Shown: piece by piece, positions 5,069 through 64,000 of the stretch
Layout: every line of letters starts with the position of its first letter
How positions within the stretch are numbered: the first letter of the stretch is position 1
From: an uncultured Gammaproteobacteria bacterium
Lineage (GTDB): Bacteria; Pseudomonadota; Gammaproteobacteria; Pseudomonadales; Porticoccaceae
Assembly (NCBI GenBank): GCA_913058345.1
Contig: CAJXQR010000012.1
Location: 1-64,000, forward strand
Reading direction: 5' to 3'
Length of the DNA stretch: 64,000 nucleotides
The notes under the pieces: model-generated
Told to the model about the DNA's origin: nothing
The model's input: only the letters and a program-made list of their open reading frames with translations
Database searches by the model: none
Program-made: the position numbers and the translations under genes

Positions 5069-5698
5069 TTACAATAAATGACTGCGGTTTTTTTCCATTA
5101 TTGCCTTAAACAAATCACTATCGAGTAAGGTTTTTAGCCAACGTTGGAGAGAGGGCAAGGACTGGTCAGCAAACCAGTCGGCATTGGTATTGGCGAACTG
5201 ACGCACAAAAGGAAATATAGCAATATCAACGAAACTCACTTGCTGTCCCAGCAGATAGGCATTGCCCTTGAGCAGGGTATTTAATTGATGTAAAAATATC
5301 AGCCCCTTGTCGCGAGCCACAAGGCTATTCCCCCCAGGGTAGCGCTGGGGATATTTATAGCGATCGAGGTTTAATTTAAACTCCCCATCATTCTCATCAA
5401 TCAGCGCCTGAGTGAACACCCACGATGATGGCAACCAGTGAGCCGAATCATTTTGTTGCAGTGCCCAACGCATAATGTCCAGGCTCTCATCAATCACCTC
5501 ACCCGATAATAGTTGCAAAACCGGCACCGAGCCTTTGGGTGATAAGGCCAGCATTGCCGCTGGTTTTGACTTTAACTCAACTTCAACCATCTCACACTGC
5601 ACACCGGCCTGGTATAAAGCCATACGAGCGCGCATGGCAAATGGACAACGGCGGAAACTGTAGAGAACGGGATACTGACGAGTCGACTCCAAGCTCAC
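5069..5698 (-). CDS. Glutathione S-transferase family protein
   Basis: 209 residues. The N-terminal thioredoxin fold begins with YSFRRCPFAMRARMAL (about residues 14-29), a CPFA motif at the start of helix 1 that replaces the Tyr/Ser active site of classic GSTs and resembles omega-type and glutaredoxin-2-like enzymes. GSVPVLQL supplies the cis-Pro loop and DESLDIMRWAL the glutathione gamma-glutamyl-binding site. The all-helical C-terminal domain contains VSFVDIAIFPFVRQF, the usual N-capping box region. Cys-type GSTs usually catalyse thiol-transfer or deglutathionylation; the substrate is unknown. GTG start at 5698 with GAGG upstream. Probably its own transcription unit, 120 bases beyond the terminator of the beta-oxidation gene. 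Confidence 0.88.
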   Translation of the reverse strand: MSLESTRQYPVLYSFRRCPFAMRARMALYQAGVQCEMVEVELKSKPAAMLALSPKGSVPVLQLLSGEVIDESLDIMRWALQQNDSAHWLPSSWVFTQALIDENDGEFKLNLDRYKYPQRYPGGNSLVARDKGLIFLHQLNTLLKGNAYLLGQQVSFVDIAIFPFVRQFANTNADWFADQSLPSLQRWLKTLLDSDLFKAIMEKNRSHLL

Positions 5699-5726
5699 TA
5701 CCCAGCAATCCTCATTCTCATCTCCC

Positions 5727-5774
5727 TAAAAAAAGCCCCAAAATAAAAGCGAAAATCACTTTCAGCTCGGGGCT
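5727..5774 (-). terminator. Rho-independent terminator after the beta-oxidation gene
   Basis: Read on the minus strand, AGCCCC pairs with GGGGCT and is followed by seven T. The loop is long (about 29 bases) and can fold further. It lies about 45 bases beyond the stop codon of the gene ending at 5819. Confidence 0.65.
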
Positions 5775-5818
5775 ACGCTCATCAACCTAACCGGTGACCT
5801 AAGCTGCTAATCGACGAC

Positions 5819-7903
<2,085 letters not shown>

Positions 7904-60823: not shown

Positions 60824-60900
60824 GGCTATGTAGCTCAGCTGGTTAGAGCACAGCATTCATAATGCTGGGGTCGGCGGTTCAAGTCCGCCCATAGCTACCA
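60824..60900 (+). tRNA. tRNA-Met (CAT, elongator type)
   Basis: 77 bases including CCA. Acceptor GGCTATG pairs with CATAGCT, with a G1-U72 wobble at the end; anticodon stem CAGCA/TGCTG with CAT at 60858-60860; T-arm GGCGG-TTCAAGT-CCGCC. The body resembles E. coli metT/metU. Its 3' end is the left boundary of the mobile element. Confidence 0.96.
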
Positions 60901-60903
60901 TAT

Positions 60904-61956
60904 TTAAAGGGTTAGCCGGTTAATACCTGCTAACCCTTTTTCATTTGTGCCCAAAATCGTGCCCTGGCTTACACCGGGCAATTGGTCGGCATATTCCATC
61001 AGATGATTCGCTGACAAATGTGCATACTTTCGCACCATCGACGCATCTGACCAACCGCCCAATTCTTGAAGCACATGCAATGGCGTTCCTTGCTGAATAT
61101 GCCAACTAGCCCAAGTGTGCCTTAAATCGTGCCAACGAAAATCACTGATACCAGCACGCTTTAAGGCTTTTCGCCAGGCATGGTTGTTAGCTCTCCCCAC
61201 GGGCATACCTTTGTAGGTAAAGACATATGTGGGACAACTCCCTTCCTGACGACTCAATACAGTCAGCGCATCCTGATTCAACGGAACTGCTATTGCCTTT
61301 TTGCCCTTGGCTTCATCTGCATGAATCCAGGCGCATCGTCTGATGCTATCCACCTGTGACCACTTAAGCTGTGTGACATTTTTCTCACGCAACCCAGTTG
61401 CCAAGGTAAAGCGCATCATCTCCGCCAGATGCTCAGGAAGTTCAGCTAAGACCTTCTCAGCTTCTTCCCTGTTCAACCAGCGAACCCGACGTTTTGGCTC
61501 TGGCAGAAAACGAATGTAAGGGGCCTTTTCAAGCCAATCCCATTCACGCTCTGCACACCGAAGTACTGCCCTCACTAAGGCCAAATGCCGATTGACGGTG
61601 CCAGGTTTCACACCTTCAGCCAACTTCCTTTGGGTAATCGCTGCAATACACTCTCGGTTAATCTCGTCCAGGTAACTATCACCTAAATAGGTATGTAACC
61701 ACCTGAACAACAGAACATCTTTATCCAGAGAGCGTTTGCAGCCTTGCTTTTCAGACATCCACCGCAGAACCGCTTCCTGCCAGGTGACTCGGGGTTTTGC
61801 CCCAAGTTGCACAACTCGCCAAGACTCAGACCTTAGTCGGTCGTGGAATTCTTGTGCGAGTCGGCGATCGGTAGTTTTAGCAGATCGGCGTACGAATTGT
61901 CCGTTGGGGGCCGTAAATTTGACCCACCAGATTTTGCCGCGTTTATAAAGTGACAT
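60904..61956 (-). CDS. Phage-type tyrosine integrase
   Basis: 350 residues. N-terminal MSLYKRGKIWWVKFTAPNG is an arm-binding motif, followed by the SAM-like core-binding domain and the catalytic domain with R190 (ATGLREKN), K218, H276-R279 (WHDLRHTW), W302 (LGGWSD) and Y311 (VRKYAHLS). It catalyses site-specific recombination between attP and attB. The gene ends 3 bases after the tRNA(Met) CCA and faces it, so the tRNA 3' end is very likely its attB core. AAGGAGG lies 7 bases before the ATG. Confidence 0.96.
   Translation of the reverse strand: MSLYKRGKIWWVKFTAPNGQFVRRSAKTTDRRLAQEFHDRLRSESWRVVQLGAKPRVTWQEAVLRWMSEKQGCKRSLDKDVLLFRWLHTYLGDSYLDEINRECIAAITQRKLAEGVKPGTVNRHLALVRAVLRCAEREWDWLEKAPYIRFLPEPKRRVRWLNREEAEKVLAELPEHLAEMMRFTLATGLREKNVTQLKWSQVDSIRRCAWIHADEAKGKKAIAVPLNQDALTVLSRQEGSCPTYVFTYKGMPVGRANNHAWRKALKRAGISDFRWHDLRHTWASWHIQQGTPLHVLQELGGWSDASMVRKYAHLSANHLMEYADQLPGVSQGTILGTNEKGLAGINRLTL
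60906..60945 (+). terminator. Terminator of tRNA-Met inside the integrase 3' end
   Basis: AAAGGGTTAG pairs perfectly with CTAACCCTTT around a 14-base loop, then TTCATTT. It begins 5 bases after the tRNA CCA and lies within the last codons of the integrase gene on the other strand. Confidence 0.7.
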
Positions 61957-62186
61957 GGAATAACCTCCTTATCACAGTGCGGCGCTTGCTCAGTTGCAGG
62001 ATACAAAGAACGGATGTAGGCCACAAGGTCAGATTGCAGGAAGACCCAACATTTTCCCGGTTTGGCCCCGCGAACCAGGCCACGAGCTGCTTTTTGTCGC
62101 AGCACTGCTGGCGACATATGCAGAAATTCCGCCGCTTGTTGAAGAGTTAGGGTGAAATCATTGTTCATATTTTCCATGCTAGCCAT
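61833..62186 (-). CDS. Small HTH protein, excisionase-like, overlapping the integrase start
   Basis: 117 residues at most; ATG codons at 62186, 62177 and 62168 are all possible. Residues about 11-62 form a MerR/excisionase-type winged helix: LTLQQAAEFLHMSPAVLRQKAARGLVRGAKPG then WVFLQSDLVAYIRSLY. The last 55 residues (CDKEVIPCHFINAAKSGG onward) are less ordered and are coded in the 124-base overlap with the integrase gene in another frame. By position and fold it is probably the recombination directionality factor (Xis) or the integrase regulator. Confidence 0.8.
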   Translation of the reverse strand: MASMENMNNDFTLTLQQAAEFLHMSPAVLRQKAARGLVRGAKPGKCWVFLQSDLVAYIRSLYPATEQAPHCDKEVIPCHFINAAKSGGSNLRPPTDNSYADLLKLPIADSHKNSTTD

Positions 62187-62189
62187 AGC

Positions 62190-62318
62190 CCACAGATAAA
62201 CAACGATAAATCCCTACAGACCTTGAAGAACTTTTCCAAAAAAACTACGACACACCTTGAAAGGATTATTGCGTGAATTTTTCGGTGGCTGTGCTGTAGT
62301 AGCGGCACTTATCTGTGG
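62190..62318. repeat. 10-bp inverted repeat flanking the element's control region
   Basis: CCACAGATAA (62190-62199), at the start side of the HTH gene, and its reverse complement TTATCTGTGG (62309-62318), 109 bases apart. The spacing and symmetry suit a protein-binding pair such as Xis or integrase arm sites. Confidence 0.55.
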
Positions 62319-62398
62319 CAGCTACAGACTTAGCTGCAAATAAGCCCTTTATGCAAATTTTGCGTAAAGGCAGGGGTGGTTACAGTGTAACCACCCCT
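62318..62398. repeat. Three adjacent hairpins, the last a perfect 12-bp stem
   Basis: GCAGCTA/TAGCTGC (62318-62337, 6-base loop); CTTTATGC with GCGTAAAG extended by GCC/GGC (62344-62371); and AGGGGTGGTTAC/GTAACCACCCCT (62372-62398, 3-base loop). None has a T-run, so they are not ordinary terminators. Confidence 0.8.
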
Positions 62399-62480
62399 AT
62401 GAATGCATTGAGGTCAAATTAATCCATTAATCGGGCATCACTGTCATTCATGAACTTAACCCTTAATTCACCCACACCCA

Positions 62481-62491
62481 AAAGGAGGTGA
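62481..62491 (+). promoter_or_regulatory. Full-length Shine-Dalgarno sequence without a nearby start codon
   Basis: AAAGGAGGTGA is complementary to the 3' end of 16S rRNA over at least ten bases. No ATG, GTG or TTG follows at 5-12 bases. An ATC at 62499, 10 bases on, opens a frame of about 50 codons, which is only suggestive. Confidence 0.6.
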
Positions 62492-62523
62492 CATCCCCAT
62501 CCAAATCGTCAGAAGAAGGACCA

Positions 62524-62568
62524 GGTTCGCGTCTCTGTTTGAGCGACAGCTACACAGAGACGCGAACC
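62524..62568. repeat. Perfect 15-bp inverted repeat
   Basis: GGTTCGCGTCTCTGT (62524-62538) and its exact reverse complement (62554-62568) around a 15-base spacer. It lies about 270 bases before the second recombinase gene. A stem of this strength without a T-tail suggests a recombination or replication site, or a structured RNA. Confidence 0.85.
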
Positions 62569-62625
62569 CGCAGCCAGGAACAAAGCCAATCGCATCAAGC
62601 CGTTACGGTGATTTTGGCCGCTGCA

Positions 62626-62785
62626 AACCGCTACAAACTGTTTGTACGGTTCAATAAAACAGTTAAATACGTGCTTTGTTGAACACACAGAACCCGCAGG
62701 TACCACTACCTGTTCAGATGTGAAGGTACCGACAGTGATTATGCTGATGCTTCTTAACGAAGCCGTCGGAGGGTACGTAACCCTC
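62626..62785. repeat. Three further hairpins before the second recombinase
   Basis: AACCG-C-TACAAA with TTTGTACGGTT (62626-62651, one bulge); CAGGTA/TACCTG (62697-62712); GAGGGT/ACCCTC (62769-62785). Together with the stems upstream they make the stretch 62187-62840 almost continuously self-complementary; it has no convincing protein gene. Confidence 0.65.
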
Positions 62786-62840
62786 AAGCGCGGTCGACGC
62801 TCTATTCGACTTTATTACTAACCAGTTTCAGGGTTTTAAG

Positions 62841-63833
62841 ATGAGCAAAGTCGGTGGTGGACGTAATTACGGATACGGCAAAAACATCAATTGGGCTGGC
62901 AAGAATGCCCTGAAGGATCGCTATGGTGAAGGGCATTACGGTACCCAAGCTGCCCATCAAGAGCGTTGGCAGAACTTTGTGCAGTTTTTAAAGACAGACT
63001 GCCATACGAAAGATGCCCGGGATATTACCAAAGGTCATATTGAACAATATGGGCAACACCTCAAACAACAGGTGAATACAGGATCCATGAAAGTGGCCTA
63101 TGCCCAAAACTTGCTCTCCTCAGTCAATCTCGTGTTATCTGTGCTACGCAGTGATAAGCAGCTAACCGTTTCACCGTCTCAACTGGTGGGAGAACGGACG
63201 GTTGTCCGTTCTCAATGCCCGATCACATTAACGCAGGATAAAAAAACAGACACATCTATTCCCGGCACTGTTCAAAACGGTCAGCTCAATCAAACCCTTC
63301 GTTATTTACAGTGCAAGGGCGAACATCGCGTTCGATTAACAGCCGCCTTGTGCCGCACCTTTGGTTTACGCTTTAAGGAGGCATCACTACTGAATATAGG
63401 ATCAGCTTTAAAACAGGCAAGAACCCAGGGCAAGATCAATATCACAGCGGGCACCAAAGGTGGCAGAGGCAAACATGCTGATCGCTGGGTACCCATCACA
63501 GAAAAGGGCATCACCCTGCTTACCAAAGCCTATAACGCCCTGGGCAATAGCAACCTGATCCCGGAACAACAAAACTACATTCAATGGCGTAACCATGCCT
63601 ATAGCCAATGGCGGTTAGCCACGGCTAACACCGACATCAAAGGCTTTCATGATTTAAGGGCGGCCTATGCCTGTGAACGTTACCAACAGATCACCGGCAG
63701 CCCCGCACCGGTAGTGACGGCAAAACGAATCGCCACCAAGGAACAAGATCTACAAGCCCGAACCATCATCGCGTTAGAGCTAGGCCATAATCGCACCAAC
63801 GTGCTGGTGGCTTACGTGGGGTCGGCCAAATAA
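62841..63833 (+). CDS. Second tyrosine recombinase (Integrase_1 / Phage_int_SAM_2 type)
   Basis: 330 residues. N-terminal NYGYGKNINWAGKNALKDRYG and a SAM-like DNA-binding region are typical of the integrase-domain proteins found in integrative elements of Vibrio and Shewanella. The catalytic domain keeps all residues: R177 (FGLRFKEA), K206 (AGTKGGRGKHADRWVPI), H270-R273 (GFHDLRAAY), H316 (ELGHNRTN) and Y325 (VAYVGS). It is unrelated in sequence to the integrase at 60904-61956. No classical ribosome site is seen before the ATG. The next gene starts one base after its stop, so they are likely an operon. Confidence 0.9.
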   Translation: MSKVGGGRNYGYGKNINWAGKNALKDRYGEGHYGTQAAHQERWQNFVQFLKTDCHTKDARDITKGHIEQYGQHLKQQVNTGSMKVAYAQNLLSSVNLVLSVLRSDKQLTVSPSQLVGERTVVRSQCPITLTQDKKTDTSIPGTVQNGQLNQTLRYLQCKGEHRVRLTAALCRTFGLRFKEASLLNIGSALKQARTQGKINITAGTKGGRGKHADRWVPITEKGITLLTKAYNALGNSNLIPEQQNYIQWRNHAYSQWRLATANTDIKGFHDLRAAYACERYQQITGSPAPVVTAKRIATKEQDLQARTIIALELGHNRTNVLVAYVGSAK

Positions 63834-63834
63834 C

Positions 63835-64000
63835 ATGCGCCCCGCCAATATCCCACAGGCACAACAACAAATGCAGAAACTATTGGCCCGCAAAATACCT
63901 GGGCGGAAAGCCACCAAGGTGAAAGAACATCTGAAACGAGCCAACACCGTTGCTAGTGTGCTATATCGACGATTTCAGGTGGGGCCGTATCAATACCAGC
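63835..64000 (+). CDS. Unknown element protein, N-terminal 55 codons only
   Basis: Starts one base after the recombinase stop codon, ATG at 63835, and runs off the window. The visible part (MRPANIPQAQQQMQKLLARK, then GRKATKVKEHLKRANTVASV and a basic YRRFQ) is Gln/Lys/Arg-rich and probably helical, which fits a DNA-binding partner of the recombinase. I do not recognise the family. Confidence 0.65.
   Translation, partial: MRPANIPQAQQQMQKLLARKIPGRKATKVKEHLKRANTVASVLYRRFQVGPYQYQ

Follow-up and report, generated by a model that had tools for sequence, protein, structure and literature searches.

Integrative elements and islands that target tRNA genes carry an integrase gene beside the tRNA gene, an exact repeat of the tRNA 3′ end and variable cargo. 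The ~9.39 kb element described here, which lies at a tRNA-Met gene in the genome of an uncultured gammaproteobacterium of the Porticoccaceae (GenBank assembly GCA_913058345.1, contig CAJXQR010000012.1), is alike in each of these respects but adds a second recombinase module with a palindrome of its own. "The window" is the whole stretch of DNA that was analysed, i.e., the first 64,000 bases of this contig (C12; 73,089 bases), which belongs to a draft genome of 3.53 Mb that is 95.2% complete.

Phage P1 carries a single loxP site near cre, and sites of the Cre/loxP type have 6–8 bases between their arms. The module of the second recombinase (hereafter rec2) resembles this and other single-site resolution systems in that a recombinase with an intact catalytic set has, on plasmids too, what appears to be a single inverted-repeat site close to its gene. 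It differs from them in having a core-binding-like partner protein, a structured leader and a palindrome with a variable centre.

According to PMC10214605 and PMC5385486, strand-biased circularizing integrative elements (SEs), GInts and Tn554 also encode several recombinase-like proteins and, after these, have a small accessory gene. However, the gene order of our element is neither the intA-tfp-intB-srap operon of SEs nor the three tandem recombinase-like genes (ginABC) plus ginD found at the left end of GInts. Gene order thus sets it apart from these groups, as do the repeats, which are short and terminal there and long and direct, at the tRNA, here. In the open PMC literature (subscription papers aside), we recognised no description of the rec2-partner-palindrome module or of the set of HflKC, DUF1611 and racemase-like genes that the element carries as cargo.

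A recombinase module within the tRNA-Met element

Judging from sequence comparison, the palindrome, the leader, rec2 and the partner gene are a recurrent module within the tRNA element. The rec2 gene (62841–63833, forward strand) encodes a tyrosine recombinase of the Integrase_1 type, 330 aa long (Integrase_1 E 5e-8). The original prediction of a second recombinase from a different subfamily with full catalytic residues is upheld: in an alignment of 20 sequences, no variation is seen at R177, K206 and R273 and hardly any at H270, H316 and Y325. The predicted fold resembles whole tyrosine recombinases (best Z 16.1 over 265 residues); the closest matches are catalytic recombinases, and SroF and MrpR, phage regulators by title, and YopR are also among the matches. 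No integron integrase model matched rec2; up to E 0.1 there was just a weak match to XerC.

Relatives of rec2 were collected by a scan of named genomes with a five-sequence alignment, one of nine sequences being too divergent as a query, which returned 342 loci; the best 80, mostly from Pseudomonas, were kept, and removal of relatives with at least 80% identity left 15 representatives. Control stretches came from the same order (20 requested, 18 retrieved, 17 long enough and used). A conventional integrase of at least 250 aa is present in 67 of the 80 loci and lies within 5 kb of rec2 in 62 of them, as compared to 0/17 controls; among the representatives the latter figure is 11/15. The integrase is located at most 250 bases from a tRNA gene (Thr, Ser or Met) in nine of the 80 loci, two of which are near-identical DNA, and rec2 may have either orientation relative to the integrase.

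The family extends beyond these loci. Matches to rec2 were found in two phage records and in 112 plasmid records, with a coverage of 80% or more in 35 of the latter. Of 194 genomes of the order, 31 have a match, in many cases through the catalytic half only. A pattern search of IMG/VR for rec2 matched nothing. In the small-plasmid stretches that we viewed, the annotated genes list no integrase other than the rec2 relative. Since relatives of rec2 occur on such plasmids and on islands elsewhere, rec2 is unlikely to be needed for integration at the tRNA, as had been proposed beforehand, and it probably does not serve this reaction. Two loci of relatives contain other features of note. In one (L079, 11520–19942), the module is followed by genes that resemble, by eye, a restriction or defence cluster (methylase-like, helicase-like). 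In another, from Pseudomonas (L121), a tmRNA gene (5483–5874) stands directly before the integrase gene (5960–7318) and is therefore a likely integration target there.

The candidate site of rec2 is a palindrome, GGTTCGCGTCTCTGT-15 nt-ACAGAGACGCGAACC, at positions 62524–62568. When up to two mismatches were allowed, the sequence CGTCTCTGT...ACAGAGACG or a variant of it was found at most 3 kb upstream of rec2 in 75 of the 80 relatives; exactly one copy was present in 74/80 loci and none in any of 35 control stretches. Of the 15 representatives, 13 have the palindrome. Related hairpins precede rec2 by ~240–480 bases in related chromosomes and on plasmids of Halomonas and Oceanimonas, and one is present in diverged form in a Psychrosphaera locus (L082). 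Among the 194 genomes of the order, four contain the exact core; each has it at a single place, always before a rec2 gene or its remnant. A reversed control pattern occurs in one genome. The remnant case is genome G068, where palindrome and leader are kept and rec2 is reduced to a fragment.

In Pseudomonas-type loci, the palindrome takes the form CCCGTCTCTTT-6/7-AAAGAGACGGG, with arms of 11 bases separated by 6–7 bases, and by analogy would have the usual size of a Cre/loxP-like site. It is located either directly before rec2 or before a gene pair that precedes rec2 (annotated as YfjI and a hypothetical protein on a P. putida plasmid). Each of three plasmid stretches viewed contains one palindrome. 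The distance between the arms, whose ends are a matter of choice, is 15 bases in the window, 6–7 bases in the Pseudomonas type and 7–15 bases in the others.

The 654 bases before rec2 (62187–62840) are rich in inverted repeats and, folded as single-stranded DNA, reach a z score of −9.8 against 20 shuffles, i.e., fold far better than these. Within this region, the leader of rec2 (62524–62840, forward strand) could be aligned from the palindrome to the start codon for five loci. In the alignment, both bases are changed in 14 of 46 predicted pairs, as compared to 7.7 (sd 1.7) in shuffles and 1–6 in slid controls, and 90% of cells pair, the structure being derived from the same five sequences, which favours its score. 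To check the leader independently, a covariance model of the 3′ half (62686–62834) was run on 46 loci and retrieved the five members, two duplicate records and L082, where the match is directly before rec2 (rough E 1.8e-4). In the 194 genomes, the model gave three matches, all before rec2 or its remnant. Since so few loci are matched, the evidence for the leader is confined to one clade. G-U pairs that most sequences retain argue for an RNA of coding sense rather than a DNA strand; the leader is thus probably an RNA.

Pseudomonas-type loci, too, have a predicted structure downstream of the palindrome (16/119 pairs changed on both sides, six sequences). To our knowledge, radC RNA has no tested function. 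The Rfam model of this RNA (RF01754) matched in each of the nine Pseudomonas-type loci tested, 36–100 bases before the palindrome; the window clade differs in that the same model found no match there. PMC2864571 lists radC RNA in a table and, in its discussion of the STAXI motif, considers single-stranded DNA with a structure in the vicinity of integrase and antirestriction genes. One locus (L088, 7589–7732 and 19389–19523) contains two radC RNAs, two palindromes and two integrases, and is apparently a tandem of two such islands.

The partner gene starts at 63835, immediately past the end of rec2 at 63833, runs off the window at 64000 and ends at contig position 64173 (forward strand); it encodes the 112-aa protein that the original prediction had noted, from its first part, as an unknown basic protein. 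A gene of this family follows rec2 in 78 of the 80 relatives, usually with a 4-base overlap, and in 14 of the 15 representatives; of the two exceptions, one locus ends 181 bases past rec2 and the other has no such gene. The same overlap with rec2 is seen for the partner gene on plasmids of Halomonas and Pseudomonas putida; on the Oceanimonas plasmid no partner gene is annotated.

The structure predicted for the partner is a five-helix domain (pLDDT 87). When the 61 best chains from Foldseek were re-aligned to it, eleven scored Z 5.8–9.9 and the next row 4.4, a range in which helical bundles may share arrangement only (Z below ~13). Nine of the eleven are titled recombinases or integrases, one is phage SroF and one has an uninformative title. 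Sequence searches returned little: no Pfam family was matched by more than two of 26 partner members, and those matches were weak; a partner profile found no PDB sequence up to E 1 and nothing usable in the catalytic half of rec2. A seven-sequence profile matched two of 369 genomes of the class, the source genome included, so that either the profile is insensitive or the rec2-partner pair is rare in the class. By its model, the partner is a probable lone core-binding domain.

The element at tRNA-Met and its site in relatives

The tRNA-Met gene that serves as the integration target is located at 60824–60900 on the forward strand (ARAGORN; Rfam tRNA 70.2 bits). That the left end of a mobile element lies here was part of the original prediction, which advised extending the contig to the right, looking there for a repeat of the tRNA 3′ end and listing the genes in between. 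The copy exists. The 45 bases of attL (60856–60900, forward strand), which are the 3′ part of the tRNA gene, recur with 45/45 identity as attR at contig positions 70247–70291, past the window end, and an exact repeat of this length at a distance of 9,391 bases is not due to chance.

The integrase gene (61956–60904, minus strand; 350 aa; Phage_integrase E 9.5e-33) has its stop codon at 60904, three bases from the tRNA gene, exactly as noted before. Its start is overlapped by the predicted helix-turn-helix gene (62186–61833, minus strand), which encodes an excisionase-like HTH_17 protein of 117 aa (HTH_17 E 4.6e-9; excisionase PHROG 2907 over residues 9–116, E 3.1e-6). Then come rec2, the partner gene and the five genes of the cargo. 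The GC content of the element is 47.9%, versus 50.4% in positions 1–60800 of the window. Its nine scanned proteins include no relaxase or conjugation gene product that would make it an integrative conjugative or mobilizable element, and PADLOC revealed no defence cargo among them (a single weak match, to the HTH protein, E 0.02). By its sequence, the element is a tRNA-Met mobile element of a known kind.

To the right of attR, positions 70292–73089 of the contig (L006, 10292–13089) have no match in 57 other genomes searched, and the core flank of the tRNA-Met site of this genome is found on another contig, C8. The DNA right of attR is probably another insertion or a rearrangement, and an assembly error is possible.

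The tRNA-Met sequence was matched in 56 of 58 genomes, the source genome included. Of 15 loci of relatives that were fetched, two were too short and were dropped; in seven of the remaining 13, the tRNA end occurs a second time in the DNA fetched, and in six it does not. The islands in these seven loci range from 2.9 to 13.9 kb and differ in gene content. One genome, G199, has two contigs with the tRNA-Met site, one occupied by a 13.8 kb island and one empty; the right flank of the island and that of the unoccupied tRNA are 99.8% identical over 4,889 bases. Since G199 was scored as 4% contaminated, the two contigs may come from different strains. The G199 island has an integrase related to that of the window element and, as its second recombinase, a shorter one that is also of the Integrase_1 kind. 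Judged from these loci, the tRNA-Met site is a hot spot of the family. The G199 island (L060, 1127–14911), in which the short recombinase stands beside the integrase, also contains a long run of genes that resemble, by eye, defence and toxin-antitoxin genes.

Cargo of the element

The five cargo genes, all on the minus strand, encode a 295-aa protein with internal repeats (contig 64375–65262), a racemase-like protein (65259–66392) and a DUF1611 protein (66392–67573), both of which score below the cut-offs of named NCBI families, HflC (67926–68912) and HflK (68912–69985). The cargo thus lies outside the window, as the original prediction had stated; that it would be the best place to look for an undescribed system is less supported, since four of the five genes belong to recognisable families and the module with rec2, whose parts are mostly inside the window, is the less described one.

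The element's HflK shares 59% identity with a copy on contig C11 of the same genome and 37% with one on C4; the latter adjoins a gene that we take, by eye, to be hflX. The C11 copy belongs to a second accessory hflK-hflC pair (~76520–78450; G000, L168), located after a gene recognised by eye as Rieske-like.

Similar cargo was looked for on plasmids. A DUF1611 search returned 102 records (14 with at least 80% coverage), and a search with HflK returned 17 with an identity of at least 59%, of which 13 in all were viewed. The 18 loci viewed, the best eight from the DUF1611 search and ten more from the HflK search, were picked by similarity and are no random sample. HflC-HflK is present in 13 of them and the pair of DUF1611 and racemase in seven; DUF1611 occurs with HflKC in three, one of them without the racemase. 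The repeat protein is found in five loci, and all five cargo genes in one, from Ruegeria conchae. NhaA is annotated near the cargo in six loci and GroEL in three, one locus being unannotated. Most of the hosts are marine; a sludge Paracoccus is among the exceptions. A Leisingera plasmid (NZ_CP081071, L179, 17626–19020) has TcmP and a phage gene of the Gp37/Gp68 family annotated close to HflKC, and genes resembling these two also occur in the G199 island.

Such a distribution is that of a recurring, loosely assembled set of stress-type genes. The gene content suggests a function in stress or membrane protein quality control. TLPQC and the locus of heat resistance, as described in PMC7685784, are comparable in that additional copies of genes for protein quality control are carried there by islands associated with a tRNA. 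Our element has HflKC, DUF1611 and racemase-like genes instead, and the dna, shsp20, clpG core of TLPQC/tLST is absent among its scanned cargo proteins.

Discussion

We propose that the rec2 module carries out Cre/loxP-like resolution at a single site while the conventional integrase serves the tRNA, and give this reading a probability of roughly 0.45. The conventional integrase and the excisionase-like protein would act at the tRNA-Met site. Rec2 would act on the palindrome as Cre does on loxP, and the single site per element or plasmid, near rec2, would allow dimers to be resolved or the excised circle to be kept monomeric. The partner may bind the same half-sites without cutting and tune synapsis or direction, and the leader would set the amount of recombinase produced. 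Resolution of dimers or upkeep of the circle is favoured because one inverted-repeat site is located a few hundred bases from an intact recombinase gene, as in cre/loxP on P1. The exact repeat, the clean empty site in a relative, the catalytic residues and whole recombinase fold of rec2, the constancy of the partner, the single palindrome and the small-plasmid relatives all support this scheme.

Recombination at the palindrome is inferred, however, and several observations weigh against the scheme. The leader model found nothing, up to E 1, in plasmids L075 and L077 or in any of the 46 loci other than those named above, and missed genome G110, although the palindrome is present there; five viral contigs have the exact palindrome and no rec2 match in the DNA fetched. 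With the partner, Foldseek alone gave no match at E 0.001, and the match of its profile to the core-binding domain of rec2 is colinear but weak (P 0.014, probability 3%). The conserved structure between palindrome and gene means that the palindrome could belong to an RNA. The main objection is the variable centre of the palindrome, since a spacing of 6–15 bases is not easily accepted by a fixed duplex complex.

The best placed of the other explanations, although an unlikely one, is that rec2 and the partner join cargo to the element at a site near the 3′ end of the partner gene, which would be comparable to the ginD end in GInts; according to the GInt paper, GInt cargo begins just before or after the ginD stop codon. 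Among alignments of pairs with at least 78% DNA identity, 511 of 896 end 120–400 bases past rec2, near the partner end, and the C-termini of partner proteins differ among relatives. Yet the pairs are not independent and alignments may end where conserved genes end. The partner-gene end was also considered as one half of an att pair; a second copy of it was found in one locus and in one control, and the candidate was rejected.

The next possibility would answer the main objection directly: conserved arms with a variable centre would be explained if the site were used as a folded hairpin. Rec2, a partner made of a core-binding domain only, the palindrome and the leader would then be an undescribed type of recombination system, in which the non-catalytic partner makes up part of the complex while either expression or the choice of site is under the control of the leader RNA. 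We consider this improbable.

It is more doubtful still that rec2 and the partner are mainly regulators and the palindrome an operator or part of a regulatory RNA at which no recombination is catalysed. The compensatory changes in the leader, the radC RNA beside it in Pseudomonas-type relatives and the presence of SroF, MrpR and YopR among the fold matches of rec2 would fit such a role, but the catalytic residues are kept over a diverse family and the closest fold matches are catalytic. No likelier is a passenger module, left by an integrated plasmid or an older island and without a role for this element: its occurrence on plasmids and in either orientation, and its decay in G068, agree with this, but both reading frames are intact in the window element and a conventional integrase stays within 5 kb in most of the kinship-filtered representatives.

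The finding bears on recombinases that are annotated only as "integrase domain-containing protein", which turned up in many of the 112 plasmid records and in many islands. One group of them has now been connected with a partner gene that is constant, with a palindrome specific to it and with a leader that is structured, which makes its site and role testable, and radC RNA gains a concrete genomic setting. The cargo, in turn, points to a travelling HflK-HflC clade that on some plasmids is linked with the DUF1611-racemase pair and stress genes.

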